Assembly (NCBI GenBank): GCA_020345945.1
Contig: CP070773.1
Coordinates: forward strand, 113,554-120,394
Source: Candidatus Bathyarchaeota archaeon
Lineage (GTDB): Archaea; Thermoproteota; Bathyarchaeia; RBG-16-48-13; GCA-020345945
Reading direction: 5' to 3'
DNA length: 6,841 nt
In this document: positions 2,649-6,841 of the stretch, piece by piece
Layout: each line of letters opens with the position of its first letter
Numbering within the stretch: position 1 is the first letter of the stretch
Notes under the pieces: model-generated
What the model was told of the DNA's origin: nothing
What the model saw: the letters and a program-made list of their open reading frames with translations, nothing else
The model's database searches: none
Position numbers and translations under genes: made by a program

Positions 2649-2776
2649 TTCTTTTCAGTAGAACTCACAATCTACTCTGGGGTCTTTAATACTAAAACCG
2701 TTCTTTTCTTCGAAATTCTTTAATCATTCTATCATTCAGAATTGTGAATAGGTGAATCTAAAAGAAGGAGACAGAT
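2649..2776. promoter_or_regulatory. Divergent promoter region nnr / AsnC-domain gene
   Basis: This spacer of about 130 nt must hold promoters for both directions. On the - strand, an A/T-rich TAGTATTAAAG block (around 2686-2697) is a TATA candidate for nnr. On the + strand, CGAAATTCTTTAAT (around 2711-2724) looks like a BRE plus TATA element for the small gene. The + gene also has a strong Shine-Dalgarno, AAGGAG (2765-2770), 6 nt before its ATG. TATA assignments are by eye only. Confidence 0.45.
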
Positions 2777-3073
2777 ATGCCAACAGCATTTGTGTTAATA
2801 AACTCTGAGATTGGGTCGGAAGAAGATGTTTTAGAAGACCTTCGAAAGGTAGAGAACGTGCAAGAGGCGTACGTGGTTGTGAATCTAGCTTCTGGAGAGG
2901 CATGTTAATGCCTCAGTTTGTCTAGTTTCACCACGAAATACGGCGTCTACGACATCATCGCGAAGGTCAAAGCAGAGGACATGAATAAACTGAAAGAGAC
3001 TATTACTTGGCGAATACGAAGGCTAGACAAGGTAAGAAGTACATTAACTATGATTGTCATATCGCAGACTTAG
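2777..3073 (+). CDS. Stand-alone Lrp/AsnC C-terminal (RAM) domain protein, split by an intron: join(2777..2877, 2938..3073)
   Basis: The spliced gene encodes 78 aa. Exon 1 begins MPTAFVLINSEIGSEEDVL; exon 2 carries YGVYDIIAKV, ITWRIRRLDKVRSTLTM and ends VISQT. This is the AsnC_trans_reg (RAM) alpha/beta ligand-binding domain without the DNA-binding HTH, a small family common in archaea at about 75-80 aa. Such proteins oligomerise and are thought to bind amino acids or similar effectors; the ligand and partner here are unknown. The ATG at 2777 has AAGGAG 6 nt upstream. Read without splicing, the frame stops at TAA 2906-2908 after 43 residues, inside the insert, although exon 2 stays in the same frame because the insert is 60 nt. 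Removing 2878-2937 joins GT and A to a Val codon and gives EAYVVYGVYD, the expected family sequence. A pseudogene is the alternative, but both exons are intact and the junction is exact. Confidence 0.88.
2878..2937 (+). other. Archaeal bulge-helix-bulge intron in a protein-coding gene (60 nt)
   Basis: The junctions form a canonical hBHBh' motif, the substrate of the archaeal tRNA splicing endonuclease. Outer helix CGTA (2868-2871) pairs with TACG (2939-2942). Central 4-bp helix CGTG (2872-2875) pairs with CACG (2932-2935). The 5' bulge is GTT (2876-2878) and the 3' bulge AAA (2936-2938), on opposite strands. Inner helix GTGAA (2879-2883) pairs with TTCAC (2927-2931). It continues past a T-T mismatch to CTAG (2885-2888) with CTAG (2922-2925), and is capped by GAGGCAT (2897-2903) pairing with ATGCCTC (2908-2914) over a GTTA loop. 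Cleavage after the second base of each bulge gives GT|T and AA|A, a phase-2 intron within codon 34. It contains one in-frame TAA. The bulge polarity (5' bulge next to the inner helix, 3' bulge next to the outer one) matches archaeal tRNA introns. There is no homing endonuclease ORF. Splicing itself is inferred, not observed. Confidence 0.9.
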
Positions 3074-3214: not shown

Positions 3215-4162
3215 ATGGATTTGTATCTGAAAGTTGCCCGTTCAGGAAACGTTTCTCTATCAGTTCCTGAAGGGTCTATGATCTCTTTTCACAATAGTCC
3301 ATATTATTCGCACAAGAATAGGTTCGCCGTCGACTTATATCCCCCTAATTCTGAATTTGAAGCATATGCTCTAAGTCCTATTGATGGAATTCTGAGAAGT
3401 ATACGAAGGTTCAAGTCTCCAAGATCAAAGTGGTTCAGTCCTCCGCCTTTTGAACCTCTAATGCTCATTGAGAGTAACGATGATCCTGAACTTTTTGTAA
3501 AGATTCTACATTTGAATCCATCAGTCCAAGAGAACGATCGTGTATACATAGGGGACTGCATCGGTACTTTTCTTAGAAGTGGATACTTTCATCGATGGAC
3601 AGATCCTCACATGCATATTGAGGTTCGACAGCGTACTGATCCAATTAGAGCAAGAGGAGGACTTCCTATTGATCTCATCAACGATTCCAAGTCACTTCCG
3701 TCTTCCTTGTGTCAAGATCAGGAAATGTCAGGGAAACTGTCCTTGGTCACAGATGAATATGTACTATTAGAGATGGACTCCTCGGTGTCTAAGTTTGGCA
3801 ATTTTTCAGGCTTATCTGCTTCTATAGGAACTGTTCAAGGAATTTTGGACTGTGGAATTCCTCACTACAATTTGGGTGGATTACATCTTCCCTCCATAAT
3901 AAAGGTTGGATTACCAGCTATCCTGAAGATCAATGGTAAAACTATTGGACAAGTGAGTAAGAACCTTGAAAATACCATACTCTTCAAGAGTCTAAAGACA
4001 AGGATAAAAATCGACGACATCCCTATCTTGGGGTTATCTCTTAGGCTTCATGTAGGTATCTCTAGAACCATTAAAGTAATTCCAACTGATCCTTCGACTT
4101 TCCCCTTTGTAGAGAACGATCAGGTGACAATTTCTATTCGAGGGGTCGATTCGGAGAATTGA
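3215..4162 (+). CDS. M23-peptidase-like (LytM/duplicated hybrid motif) protein, first gene of lipoate cluster
   Basis: A 315-aa protein of uncertain function. The N-terminal half (about 20-150) resembles the M23 metallopeptidase fold. H33 and D40 sit in YYSHKNRFAVD, followed by a beta segment LSPIDGILRS (53-62), H99 in KILHLNP, ENDRVYIGDCIG (106-117) and the terminal HxH motif H132-M-H134 in DPHMHIEVR. The first ligand pair is spaced H-x6-D rather than the usual H-x3-D, so peptidase activity is doubtful. No signal peptide or membrane segment is visible, which argues against a cell-wall role. The C-terminal half (about 165-315) is beta-rich and unrecognised. The start is uncertain: GAGGT (3209-3213) is only 1 nt before the ATG, whereas a TTG at 3221 would be 7 nt away. 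Its TGA overlaps the next gene's TTG, so it belongs to the same operon. Confidence 0.72.
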   Translation: MDLYLKVARSGNVSLSVPEGSMISFHNSPYYSHKNRFAVDLYPPNSEFEAYALSPIDGILRSIRRFKSPRSKWFSPPPFEPLMLIESNDDPELFVKILHLNPSVQENDRVYIGDCIGTFLRSGYFHRWTDPHMHIEVRQRTDPIRARGGLPIDLINDSKSLPSSLCQDQEMSGKLSLVTDEYVLLEMDSSVSKFGNFSGLSASIGTVQGILDCGIPHYNLGGLHLPSIIKVGLPAILKINGKTIGQVSKNLENTILFKSLKTRIKIDDIPILGLSLRLHVGISRTIKVIPTDPSTFPFVENDQVTISIRGVDSEN

Positions 4163-5172
4163 ATTCTATAACAATTCCAGAAAGAGTGAGAGTATCCTAC
4201 GGGTCTGCCATACTCCTCGGTTTGATTCGTGGTGTGTCCGCTGTAGATCCTACAACTGTTTACCTTCTCACCTATTATGCTGGTAAGTGTACGGCAAACT
4301 GTGCTTTCTGTCCTCAATCGAGAGAAAGTACTGCTAGATCGGATCGTCTGTCGAGAGTAATCTGGCCCGACTTCAGAACAACAGAAGTAATCGAAAAGCT
4401 GGCGAATAGTCAAGCAGGCGGTCGCGTGAAGCGTGTATGTATACAGACACTGAACTACAAGAATATGTTTGAAGATGTTCTAGGAATAGTTGGTTTTGTA
4501 TCGGAGAGATCGAAGGTTCCGATTTCTGTATCCACTAAACCGTTGACTCTAATTCAACTAAAACAGCTCAAGATGTATGGTGTTGATCGCATCTCTATAC
4601 CCTTGGATTGTGCCACTCGCAATGTGTTTCGGGTTATCAAGGGTTCAGGAATTGACGGTCCATACTCATGGGGGATGCATTGGAAGGGTCTGACGGATGC
4701 ATTGAAGGTGTTTGGTCTTGGTGGTGTCAGCACCCACATTATCGTAGGTTTGGGAGAGACTGACGAAGAGTTGGCAGAGATTTTTAGACGCTTGATTGAC
4801 CTTGGAATTTTTCCAGGTCTCTTTGCGTTTACACCGGTTCAGGGGACAAACCTAGAAGAGAGTATCAAGCCATCGATTTCTCGTTATCGAAGAATCCAAC
4901 TTCTTCACTATCTTCTAACCAATAGATCAATTCGTTATGAGGATCTTAAGTTTGGAGAAAAGGGAGAAGTCATCGATTTCGGTTTGTCTAGACAAGAACT
5001 AGGGAAGATAATTAGGAGCGGTCTTCCCTTTGTTACATCGGGTTGTCCTGACTGCAATCGTCCATTCTATAATGAGAAACCTGGAGGGCCTCTCTATAAC
5101 TATCCTCGACCACTTAATAGGGAAGAAATAGATCAAATAGTAGAAGTATTATTGGGGAATAATTATGACTGA
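4159..5172 (+). CDS. Radical SAM, biotin-synthase-like protein; probable LipS1/LipS2-type lipoyl synthase subunit
   Basis: Predicted cytoplasmic iron-sulfur enzyme of 337 aa. The radical SAM motif C-x3-C-x2-C is at C44, C48 and C51 (KCTANCAFC) and binds the SAM-cleaving [4Fe-4S] cluster. A C-terminal CPDC pair (C296, C299) in GCPDCNRPFYNEKPGG is a candidate site for a second cluster. In Thermococcus kodakarensis, two proteins once annotated as biotin synthases (LipS1, LipS2) jointly insert sulfur at C8 and C6 of an octanoyl group. Adjacency to an LplA-type ligase and a second radical SAM gene makes this the likely role here. My guess is LipS2, without proof. The start is a TTG (4159-4161) overlapping the previous stop as TTGA; its own stop overlaps lplA by 8 nt. 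A true biotin synthase is less likely because no bio genes are nearby. Confidence 0.82.
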   Translation: MNSITIPERVRVSYGSAILLGLIRGVSAVDPTTVYLLTYYAGKCTANCAFCPQSRESTARSDRLSRVIWPDFRTTEVIEKLANSQAGGRVKRVCIQTLNYKNMFEDVLGIVGFVSERSKVPISVSTKPLTLIQLKQLKMYGVDRISIPLDCATRNVFRVIKGSGIDGPYSWGMHWKGLTDALKVFGLGGVSTHIIVGLGETDEELAEIFRRLIDLGIFPGLFAFTPVQGTNLEESIKPSISRYRRIQLLHYLLTNRSIRYEDLKFGEKGEVIDFGLSRQELGKIIRSGLPFVTSGCPDCNRPFYNEKPGGPLYNYPRPLNREEIDQIVEVLLGNNYD

Positions 5173-5953
5173 TGTCTGGCGTTTTTTCGGCATCGACTGT
5201 TACGACGCCTATATGAATATGGCTATTGATGAATCTATATCGAGAACTAAACTCGAATCAGATACTCTGAATACCATTCGTTTCTATCGATGGCAGCCTT
5301 CGGCTGTATCAATAGGCTATTTCCAGATCGCGGAAGAAGAGGTCGATTTTGAGGCATGTTCTGCTCTCAATATCGATATGGTCAGACGCATTACTGGAGG
5401 TGGAGCGGTCTATCATGACTATGCTGGTGAGTTGACCTACAGCTTGATTGTTAACGAATCGAACAAGAAGATTCCGAAAGATATTGCGAAGTCTTACGAG
5501 ATCATATGTCTCGGAATAGTTGAAGGACTGAAGACCATTGATATCGATGCAGCCTTCAAGCCTATTAATGACATTATTGTGAACGGACGGAAGATCTCTG
5601 GTAACGCTCAGACTAGACGTTGGGGAGTAGTTCTACAGCATGGAACTATCTTGGTAGACGCCGACATTAGAACGATGTTCAAGGCTCTCAAAGTCAGTAA
5701 GGAGAAGATTAGCGATAAACAAATCAAGGCAGTTGAGGATCGAGTTACAACGATCAAGAAAGAATTAGGTCGTAAGGTAACTTTTGAAGAAGTAGCTTCT
5801 GCCCTGAGAATAGGCTTTGAGAAGACTCTTGATATTGATTTAATCGATCAACCTCTTACAGACCGTGAAACCTCTCTCGCGTTGGAGTTGAGAGAAACCA
5901 AGTTCAAGAACAAGGATTGGAATATGAAAAGGCCTTCCCAATTTGGATTGTAG
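5165..5953 (+). CDS. lplA: LplA-type lipoate/octanoate-protein ligase
   Basis: A 262-aa member of the biotin/lipoate A/B protein ligase family. It attaches lipoate or octanoate to the lysine of carrier domains such as GcvH or 2-oxoacid dehydrogenase E2. Visible signatures are the RRITGGGAVYHD block (74-85), the NDI--NGRKISGNAQ block with the presumed catalytic K143 (135-149), and LQHGTILVD (157-165). It lacks the accessory C-terminal domain of E. coli LplA. In archaea that domain is often a separate protein, and none is seen here, so this may be a single-chain ligase, a transferase, or may need a partner encoded elsewhere. The ATG overlaps the upstream radical SAM gene by 8 nt; the 3' end overlaps the next gene by about 37 nt. 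Both flanks being radical SAM genes supports octanoylation before sulfur insertion. Confidence 0.9.
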   Translation: MTDVWRFFGIDCYDAYMNMAIDESISRTKLESDTLNTIRFYRWQPSAVSIGYFQIAEEEVDFEACSALNIDMVRRITGGGAVYHDYAGELTYSLIVNESNKKIPKDIAKSYEIICLGIVEGLKTIDIDAAFKPINDIIVNGRKISGNAQTRRWGVVLQHGTILVDADIRTMFKALKVSKEKISDKQIKAVEDRVTTIKKELGRKVTFEEVASALRIGFEKTLDIDLIDQPLTDRETSLALELRETKFKNKDWNMKRPSQFGL

Positions 5954-6841
5954 GTATCGGAGGGCTTCTTCTGAGTGAGATTGCCAAAGGAACAACTGTG
6001 CAGGAGCTCGCAGCGAGGGTTGAGGTAGAATTCGATAGAATGCTCGAATTATCCAGAAGAAAATCGTGGGCAAGTTTCGGCAAGAAGATCTGGTTCTATG
6101 CACCTACATTTGCCCCATATTCTTCAGCTGACGCTGATTTTCCATCCTATACTTTTCCGTCTATTTCAGTAACTGGTAGTCATTGTGCACTTGGCTGTTT
6201 ACACTGTAAGGGTAAACTCCTCAACACAATGATTCCTGTTTCTAGCCCTGAGAATCTCGTCAGCTTAGCTTACACTCTGAAAGAGAAAGGTTCCCTGGGC
6301 TTCCTTCTCAGCGGCGGTTGTCTCCCTAATGGTTCAGTACCAATTGGGGGATTCTTGGACGCTATTGCAGAGATAAAGCGTGAAGTCCAGCTTACTGTAT
6401 TGGTACATACAGGCCTCGTTAATCTGGAGACTGCCAAAAAAATGAAAGAAGTTGGCGTAGATGGTGCGTTAATAGATGTAATTGGGTCCGACAAGACGAT
6501 AAACGAGATATATAACCTCAAAGAGGCGTCCATTCAAGATTACGAGAGATCATTAGATGCGTTGCATAGGTCTGGGGTTCCAGCCATTCCCCATATTCTG
6601 CTAGGATTACATTATGGTAAGATTAATGGGGAATTACAGGCTCTCGATATGATCTCAAGATACTCCCCAGCTGCCTTGGTGATAATTGTGTTGAGACCTC
6701 TTCGTGGCACTCCTATGGCTACAGTCTCTCCTCCTCCACCAAGGGAAATTGCCAAGTTTATCGCGACTGCTCGTTTTGCTCTTAAACAGACCCCTATGGT
6801 TCTTGGTTGTGTTCGGCCACTTGGAACACATAAAACGGAAA
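5917..6841 (+). CDS. Second radical SAM protein, probable LipS1/LipS2-type lipoyl synthase subunit (3' truncated by window)
   Basis: The open frame runs to the window edge, giving 308 residues plus one base. The radical SAM motif is C90-x3-C94-x2-C97 (HCALGCLHC). Further conserved blocks are SGGCLPNGSVP (with C135), VHTGLVNLETA, IDVIGSDKTI, ILLGLHYGKI and VLGCVRPLGTHK (with C298). C298 and the conserved GC-RP-G-H context are candidate second-cluster ligands. The sequence differs clearly from the first radical SAM gene, so this is a paired, not duplicated, enzyme. By context it supplies the other sulfur-insertion step of lipoyl formation, tentatively LipS1. The start is uncertain: the frame opens at 5869, and the only usual start before conserved sequence (FPIWIVGIGGLLLSE) is TTG 5917, with AAGGA directly abutting it. 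That start implies a 37-nt overlap with lplA. Confidence 0.82.
   Translation, partial: MEYEKAFPIWIVGIGGLLLSEIAKGTTVQELAARVEVEFDRMLELSRRKSWASFGKKIWFYAPTFAPYSSADADFPSYTFPSISVTGSHCALGCLHCKGKLLNTMIPVSSPENLVSLAYTLKEKGSLGFLLSGGCLPNGSVPIGGFLDAIAEIKREVQLTVLVHTGLVNLETAKKMKEVGVDGALIDVIGSDKTINEIYNLKEASIQDYERSLDALHRSGVPAIPHILLGLHYGKINGELQALDMISRYSPAALVIIVLRPLRGTPMATVSPPPPREIAKFIATARFALKQTPMVLGCVRPLGTHKTE

Follow-up and report, generated by a model that had tools for sequence, protein, structure and literature searches.

How is a protein made from an archaeal gene whose reading frame is broken in the middle by a stop codon? This question is raised by a gene in the 6,841-nucleotide (nt) stretch of DNA from a Candidatus Bathyarchaeota archaeon that we analyzed (assembly GCA_020345945.1, contig CP070773.1, positions 113,554 to 120,394 of the forward strand), which is called the window below. 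The gene encodes a stand-alone RAM protein (Lrp/AsnC ligand domain) of 78 amino acids (aa) and is divided by a 60-nt insert at positions 2878–2937. The sequences of this gene and of its relatives make it very probable that the insert is an mRNA intron, which would be cut at a bulge–helix–bulge (BHB) motif by the tRNA splicing endonuclease EndA, the exons being joined by RtcB.

The RAM Gene and Its Insert

The window is archaeal. Rfam models identify the 3' end of the 23S rRNA at 1–146 and an archaeal RNase P RNA at 245–556. The unspliced frame from the ATG at 2777 encodes 43 aa and is ended by the TAA at 2906–2908, inside the insert. With cuts at 2877/2878 and 2937/2938, the spliced open reading frame (ORF) runs from this ATG to the TAG at 3071–3073 and reads EAYVVYGVYD across the join. 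The spliced protein matches PF01037 (AsnC_trans_reg) with an E-value of 8.2e-17; the host gene is therefore not cbf5. It is also similar to the stand-alone RAM proteins of PDB entries 2zbc (E 5.5e-22, residues 1–76) and 2e1a (E 9.2e-15, residues 1–75).

A preliminary description of this DNA had proposed that 60 nt with an in-frame stop interrupt an AsnC/RAM gene, that the RNA forms a textbook hBHBh' fold (a BHB between an outer and an inner helix), and that cuts after the second bulge base rejoin the ORF. The interruption was borne out to the base. Both direct reading and a script found every element of the fold at its place, and the cuts yield the 78-aa frame.

We evaluated how often such a motif arises by chance. 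The strict scan looked for 4 Watson–Crick outer and 4 Watson–Crick central pairs, two 3-nt bulges, an insert of 25–200 nt, and an inner helix of at least 5 pairs with at most one G-U. In the window, this motif is the single match on the plus strand, and there is none on the minus strand; 150 dinucleotide shuffles of the window gave a mean of 0.12 matches per strand. When only the insert was shuffled, 4 central and at least 4 inner pairs appeared at the boundary set by homology in 0.13% of 20,000 draws. The insert segment folds more stably than shuffled versions of it (z −3.18 at 91 nt and z −3.24 at 79 nt). Its minimum-energy fold is a near-degenerate shift of the 5' bulge (−27.8 kcal/mol), 0.7 kcal/mol lower than the exact BHB (−27.1 kcal/mol).

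The strict scan was also applied to 20 stretches of 20 kb, which make up 34% of the host genome and include 7,500 masked bases. These 400 kb contain 11 strict matches on both strands, one of which is a second RAM copy. About 14 are expected by chance from the shuffle rate of the window, which was obtained with slightly different length limits. By the criterion of reading frames alone, no clear split gene emerged among the remaining ten. A looser scan of the 400 kb gave 1,185 matches, including 91 frame-joining candidates. ARAGORN found no tRNA in the window. A self-splicing intron of group I or II was rejected: Rfam shows only the RNase P RNA and 23S rRNA in the window, and 60 nt is far too short.

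A Paralogue Is Split at the Same Codon

The host assembly (G000) is of the metagenome type and comprises 1.19 Mb. It contains a second RAM copy that is 73% identical to the copy in the window (locus L002, C1:480437–480731). It turned out that this paralogue is split at the same codon 34, with the same BHB, by a 55-nt insert whose length is not a multiple of 3. The codon-34 BHB is the only match of the strict scan on the plus strand of L002. Relative to the window copy, an inner pair and a pair of the second stem have each changed from A-U to G-C on both sides, and one inner pair has changed from G-C to G-U. These pairs were taken from the model alignment; the MAFFT alignment placed the 3' stem of the paralogue wrongly. 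Another RAM copy in this genome is distant (36%) and intact.

Homologues at Codon 34

A RAM match was found in 59 of 60 relatives, 11 of which belong to the same order and the rest to the same class. Close copies, up to 79% identical among the matches listed, are continuous across the join, and the only interrupted copies among the matches listed from the 60 relatives are the two of the host genome. For 11 genomes, mostly with weak best matches, all matches were listed; they contain no further split copy except a partial match in G007, which adjoins an N-masked stretch. Named loci encoding relatives are uninterrupted in 70 cases out of 74. The preliminary description had suggested an alignment with homologues lacking the insert as a check; such homologues are continuous through the site. 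A covariance search at the same codon, suggested there as well, found this intron in none of the other 255 genomes of the class, yet 15 public protein clusters share the intron-encoded tail.

These clusters were obtained using the unspliced 43-aa product as a protein query, which gave 17 matches. Fifteen of them, 38–54 aa long, share exon 1 and the tail encoded by the intron (VVN or VVK onwards); the remaining two are ordinary 76-aa proteins. The public matches are 90% clusters, and at least one may represent the window's own copy. One cluster is named 'hypothetical protein ISS96_03110 [Candidatus Bathyarchaeota archaeon]'. From the protein tail, we infer that the genes behind the 15 clusters carry the codon-34 intron.

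Further Predicted Intron Positions in the RAM Gene

The preliminary description treated the gene as the host of a single intron. Its status as a host has stood, and the single intron has been replaced by at least four positions in the gene family, three of them with weaker exon-side helices. In other genomes of the phylum, BHB-type inserts of 21–39 nt lie at three more codons: 12, 45/46 and 60.

At codon 60, four of the 74 loci are not continuous: L091, L119, L121 (Ca. Benthortus lauensis, Wolframiiraptoraceae) and L124. They contain 29–32 nt between RI and RRLDKV, and a cut after the second bulge base joins AT to A, giving Ile60 in 4/4 loci. Model R1 finds the codon-60 intron in 8 genomes among 398 of the phylum, all with the family code f33. 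The full count is 8 genomes because the stretches of four of the eight fall within the four named loci. The R1 match in the host genome covers the exon only (48 nt) and was excluded from this count. In the order to which f33 belongs, 39 of 44 genomes match at an E-value of 1e-12 or better. Among these matches listed, the orthologue is continuous in 24 genomes; 8 have the codon-60 intron, 6 the codon-12 intron, and 1 only a distant copy. The codon-12 intron is 25 or 27 nt long, and its 6 genomes belong to the genus code g65.

In the phylum search, 356 of 398 genomes match at 1e-10. The matches listed reached about E 1.4e-27, and 34 chosen low scorers were followed up. The search and this follow-up exposed the codon-45/46 intron of 21–23 nt. 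Of the 7 genomes of one class, 6 contain the gene; each of these six carries this intron and, in addition, one or more uninterrupted paralogues. Stricter filters were applied when a model search covered more than 40 genomes, and the survey may miss other interrupted copies. A longer copy in G131 was not counted, as its extra residues lie in an open frame.

Second RAM-like copies with in-frame stops near residue 12 are present in two Bathyarchaeota contigs (L065 4859–5076 and L075 4742–4963). The L065 copy also has a frame slip and no insert. Both are possible pseudogenes and were set aside.

The codon-12 copies (L168–L173) and codon-60 copies (L129–L136) have the sequence GAG(G)AT in common on the 5' exon side of the cut. 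It may point to a preferred target of intron insertion. The intronless genus g90 sits inside the family of the codon-60 and codon-12 copies, a position compatible with either gain or loss.

Tests over the 22 Copies

The set defined at the DNA level comprises 22 copies from 21 genomes at the four positions. Copies at one site are related, so that only the four sites count as independent. For 21 copies, the join was set first by homology alone, which left 1–4 equal candidates per copy. In each of these 21, a script showed that one candidate join has 4 central pairs, 3+3 bulges and 4–10 inner pairs. For the 22nd copy, at a contig end (G190), a separate script identifies an insert of 30 nt; RIRRL is restored when it is taken out. 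Cutting 3' of the second bulge base brings back the homologous frame in 22/22 copies. When the insert was shuffled and the exons were kept, the central and inner helices formed in 0–0.41% of draws per copy (21 copies).

Silent changes in the exons are matched by changes in the introns across the central helix. At codon 12, the Thr codons ACT/ACC go with CTCA/CTCG, and at codon 45 the Val codons GTG/GTA go with CCAC/CTAT. In exon 2, the nonsynonymous rate (dN) is below the synonymous rate (dS) in 10/10 pairs; certain sequences occur in more than one of them.

In all 21 scripted copies, irrespective of its length, the intron contains a stop in the frame of exon 1, and the 22nd has one by reading. 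This stop varies between TAA, TAG and TGA and shifts its place between relatives. With whole-intron shuffles, the joint chance of the stops is 0.01 over the four sites taken once; over 11 representatives, which are only partly independent of each other, it is 7e-7. With loop-only shuffles, the corresponding values are 0.03 and 5e-5. These values are suggestive of in-frame stops being retained beyond chance; copies with stops are also easier for searches to notice.

The protein tree was built from 77 columns by a quick method, and 39 of its 74 inner branches are open. It groups the codon-12 copies (support 99) and places the codon-60 copies on one side of an unsupported branch. The four positions are regarded as separate gains because the positions differ, not because of the tree. 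Introns would accordingly have entered this one gene family at least four times.

Splicing Machinery and Proposed Mechanism

The host genome encodes one EndA (PF01974, partly masked) and one RtcB, as tested for G000 only. Together with the uninterrupted homologues and the paralogue insert at the same codon with its compensatory changes, these genes support the earlier proposal of an intron. The same genome has a 91-nt tRNA gene (L204 3289–3379, G000:C1 about 783290–783380), called Arg(tcg) by ARAGORN, which appears to read better as tRNA-Thr(CGT) with an intron of ~15 nt.

In the proposed mechanism, EndA would cut the BHB after the second bulge base and excise the insert, and RtcB would join the exons. 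Translation of the unspliced message would yield no more than a short dead-end peptide, since every intron examined contains an in-frame stop. Intron retention would be near-neutral, the constant presence of EndA and RtcB making it tolerable. Repeated entry into one gene would most likely reflect high expression that favours insertion, and we guess that insertion may proceed via reverse splicing and recombination. A broader idea, to which we give only tentative credit and which is somewhat more likely to be wrong than right, is that mobile tRNA-type introns use the RAM gene as a landing site, with at least four entries at G/purine-rich codons and matched evolution of exons and introns. Because of the in-frame stop, splicing by EndA and RtcB would then be an obligatory switch that decides whether a dead-end peptide or a working regulator is made. 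Most of the RAM paralogues listed are uninterrupted, which is a weak control for a possible 'hot spot'.

Weighing the Evidence

A number of results weigh against the reading of the inserts as introns or limit it. Strict BHBs occur by chance throughout the genome, so that the motif by itself proves little; the evidence is the coincidence of the BHB with an insert defined by homology. The fold of the whole 297-nt gene is no stabler than shuffles (z −0.30), although its centroid retains the BHB form. The paralogue fold is likewise no stabler than shuffles (z −0.04), and its minimum-energy fold lies 1.6 kcal/mol below its BHB form. Covariation does not clearly exceed shuffles, either on 2 sequences (129/500 on all measures) or on 4 sequences (22–38/500 on four measures and 360/500 on one). 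Of the 256 genomes of the class searched with model R2, the host genome alone yielded the codon-34 intron, in both of its copies. At codons 12, 45 and 60, the exon-side helices have only 1–3 pairs, compared with 4 at codon 34, and these motifs are relaxed rather than textbook. On the poorly resolved protein tree, the codon-34 and codon-45 copies need two changes each.

The insert could instead be a disabling mutation in a decaying pseudogene or an assembly error. A stop in the middle of the gene and a metagenome-type assembly that is 66% complete speak for this, but the insert is found in two paralogues, and its tail forms the end of 15 public protein clusters. Decay or misassembly also fits poorly with 22 copies at four codons that restore the homologous frame, with dN below dS in exon 2 of all 10 pairs, and with the matched exon–intron changes. 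We regard this explanation as very improbable.

Ribosomes bypass coding gaps in T4 gene 60 and in the yeast mitochondrial byps, and short structured inserts within an ORF, with a stop inside, would suit such skipping of an RNA segment that is not removed. However, matching take-off and landing triplets are found in 1/21 copies, and all four sites have the geometry of BHB cleavage (a 4-bp centre and 3+3 bulges), which bypassing does not require; there is hardly any probability left for it. Cleavage by EndA might also serve to destroy or regulate the message without religation, the joinable ORF being a relic. The upkeep of the join frame and the low dN relative to dS downstream, seen at four sites, point to joined exons instead, and RtcB is present, so that we hold this explanation to be highly unlikely too. 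Excision of the insert followed by joining of the exons is the reading that we prefer.

Comparison with Known Introns

An intron in cbf5 mRNA was reportedly described by Watanabe in 2002. Further BHB cases may be listed in an RNA-seq study from 2013 on unusual transcripts of archaea. The available text on the cbf5 intron of Desulfurococcales and Sulfolobales (Yokobori 2009, PMC2738675) describes a pre-mRNA BHB cut between the second and third bulge residues with restoration of the ORF, as in the RAM gene, and a patchy distribution with intronless relatives, again as in the RAM gene. That text describes one position in cbf5, in contrast to four in the RAM gene, and calls most cbf5 BHBs unconventional, whereas the motif in the window is canonical. 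The host gene differs as well, being a stand-alone RAM gene, and RAM introns are as short as 21 nt. For the RAM proteins 2zbc and 2e1a, intronless genes are assumed, unlike the split gene studied here.

In Haloferax, EndA acts on an mRNA BHB of HVO_1309, according to the accessible part of a 2020 report (PMC7714728); we propose the same for RAM mRNA. The HVO_1309 sites lie in the 5' untranslated region (UTR), whereas the RAM introns divide the coding frame. The BHBs of archaeal tRNA introns, be they canonical or relaxed (hBH, HBh'), have the same 4-bp helix and two 3-nt bulges, as outlined in the available portion of PMC6379350. The RAM sites 12, 45 and 60 resemble the relaxed tRNA-intron type of that source, although the host RNA here is an mRNA.

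Besides its own 5' UTR case, the 2020 report names, in the part available, the cbf5 mRNA intron as the only further archaeal BHB intron reported (PMC7714728). Introns in other archaeal genes were predicted but not confirmed, as stated in the accessible text of PMC2738675. In a literature search that was weak on subscription papers and drew on partly available texts, no report of this RAM host gene was found, and the accessible parts of PMC12397907, PMC4090602 and PMC13149111 name no other archaeal mRNA intron host.

Features and Neighbouring Genes

Coordinates of the gene and the BHB elements are collected in Table 1. Downstream of the RAM gene, three genes adjoin each other: LipS2 (4159–5172), a lipoate-protein ligase-like gene (5165–5953) and a LipS1-like gene (5917–6840), the frame of which is cut by the window end. 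The matches of the last two are below the NCBIfam cut-offs. The genes at 4159–6840 are likely a lipoate synthesis cluster. Between them and the RAM gene lies a 315-aa ORF (3215–4162), whose only match, to Peptidase_M23, is weak and does not reach the cut-off (E 2e-4).

Table 1. Elements of the split RAM gene and its predicted intron (window coordinates)
Feature	Position	Strand	Basis
GGAG, Shine-Dalgarno-like	2767–2770	+	letters read directly; role inferred
Exon 1 of RAM gene (codons 1–33 and two bases of codon 34)	2777–2877	+	spliced translation; PF01037
Outer helix, 5' strand CGTA, pairs with TACG 2939–2942	2868–2871	+	scripted motif check, strict scan
Central helix, 5' strand CGTG, pairs with 2932–2935	2872–2875	+	scripted motif check, strict scan
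5' bulge GTT, predicted cut 2877/2878	2876–2878	+	scripted motif check
Predicted 60-nt intron, in-frame TAA 2906–2908	2878–2937	+	motif, frame restoration, covariance model R2
Inner helix, 5' strand GTGAA, pairs with TTCAC 2927–2931	2879–2883	+	scripted motif check
Next stem CTAG/CTAG, beyond a U-U mismatch above the inner helix	2885–2888/2922–2925	+	scripted motif check
Hairpin in intron interior, GAGGCAT-GTTA-ATGCCTC	2897–2914	+	predicted fold
Central helix, 3' strand CACG	2932–2935	+	scripted motif check, strict scan
3' bulge AAA, predicted cut 2937/2938	2936–2938	+	scripted motif check
Exon 2 of RAM gene, stop TAG 3071–3073	2938–3073	+	spliced translation; dN below dS between the two paralogues

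Significance

With its predicted introns, the RAM family is likely the second host gene family for archaeal mRNA BHB introns, after cbf5. Of the 15 clusters with the codon-34 tail, 4 carry the name 'hypothetical protein'; such genes are thus cut short by gene calling, and the number of archaeal mRNA introns is probably underestimated. Four positions, with 22 copies at the DNA level in 21 genomes and 15 clusters that may include the window's own copy, offer a comparative set for the gain, upkeep and loss of mRNA introns under protein-only splicing. Introns of 21–60 nt are short targets for direct tests. The in-frame stop in 22/22 introns provides a testable idea of how translation and splicing may act on the same RNA.
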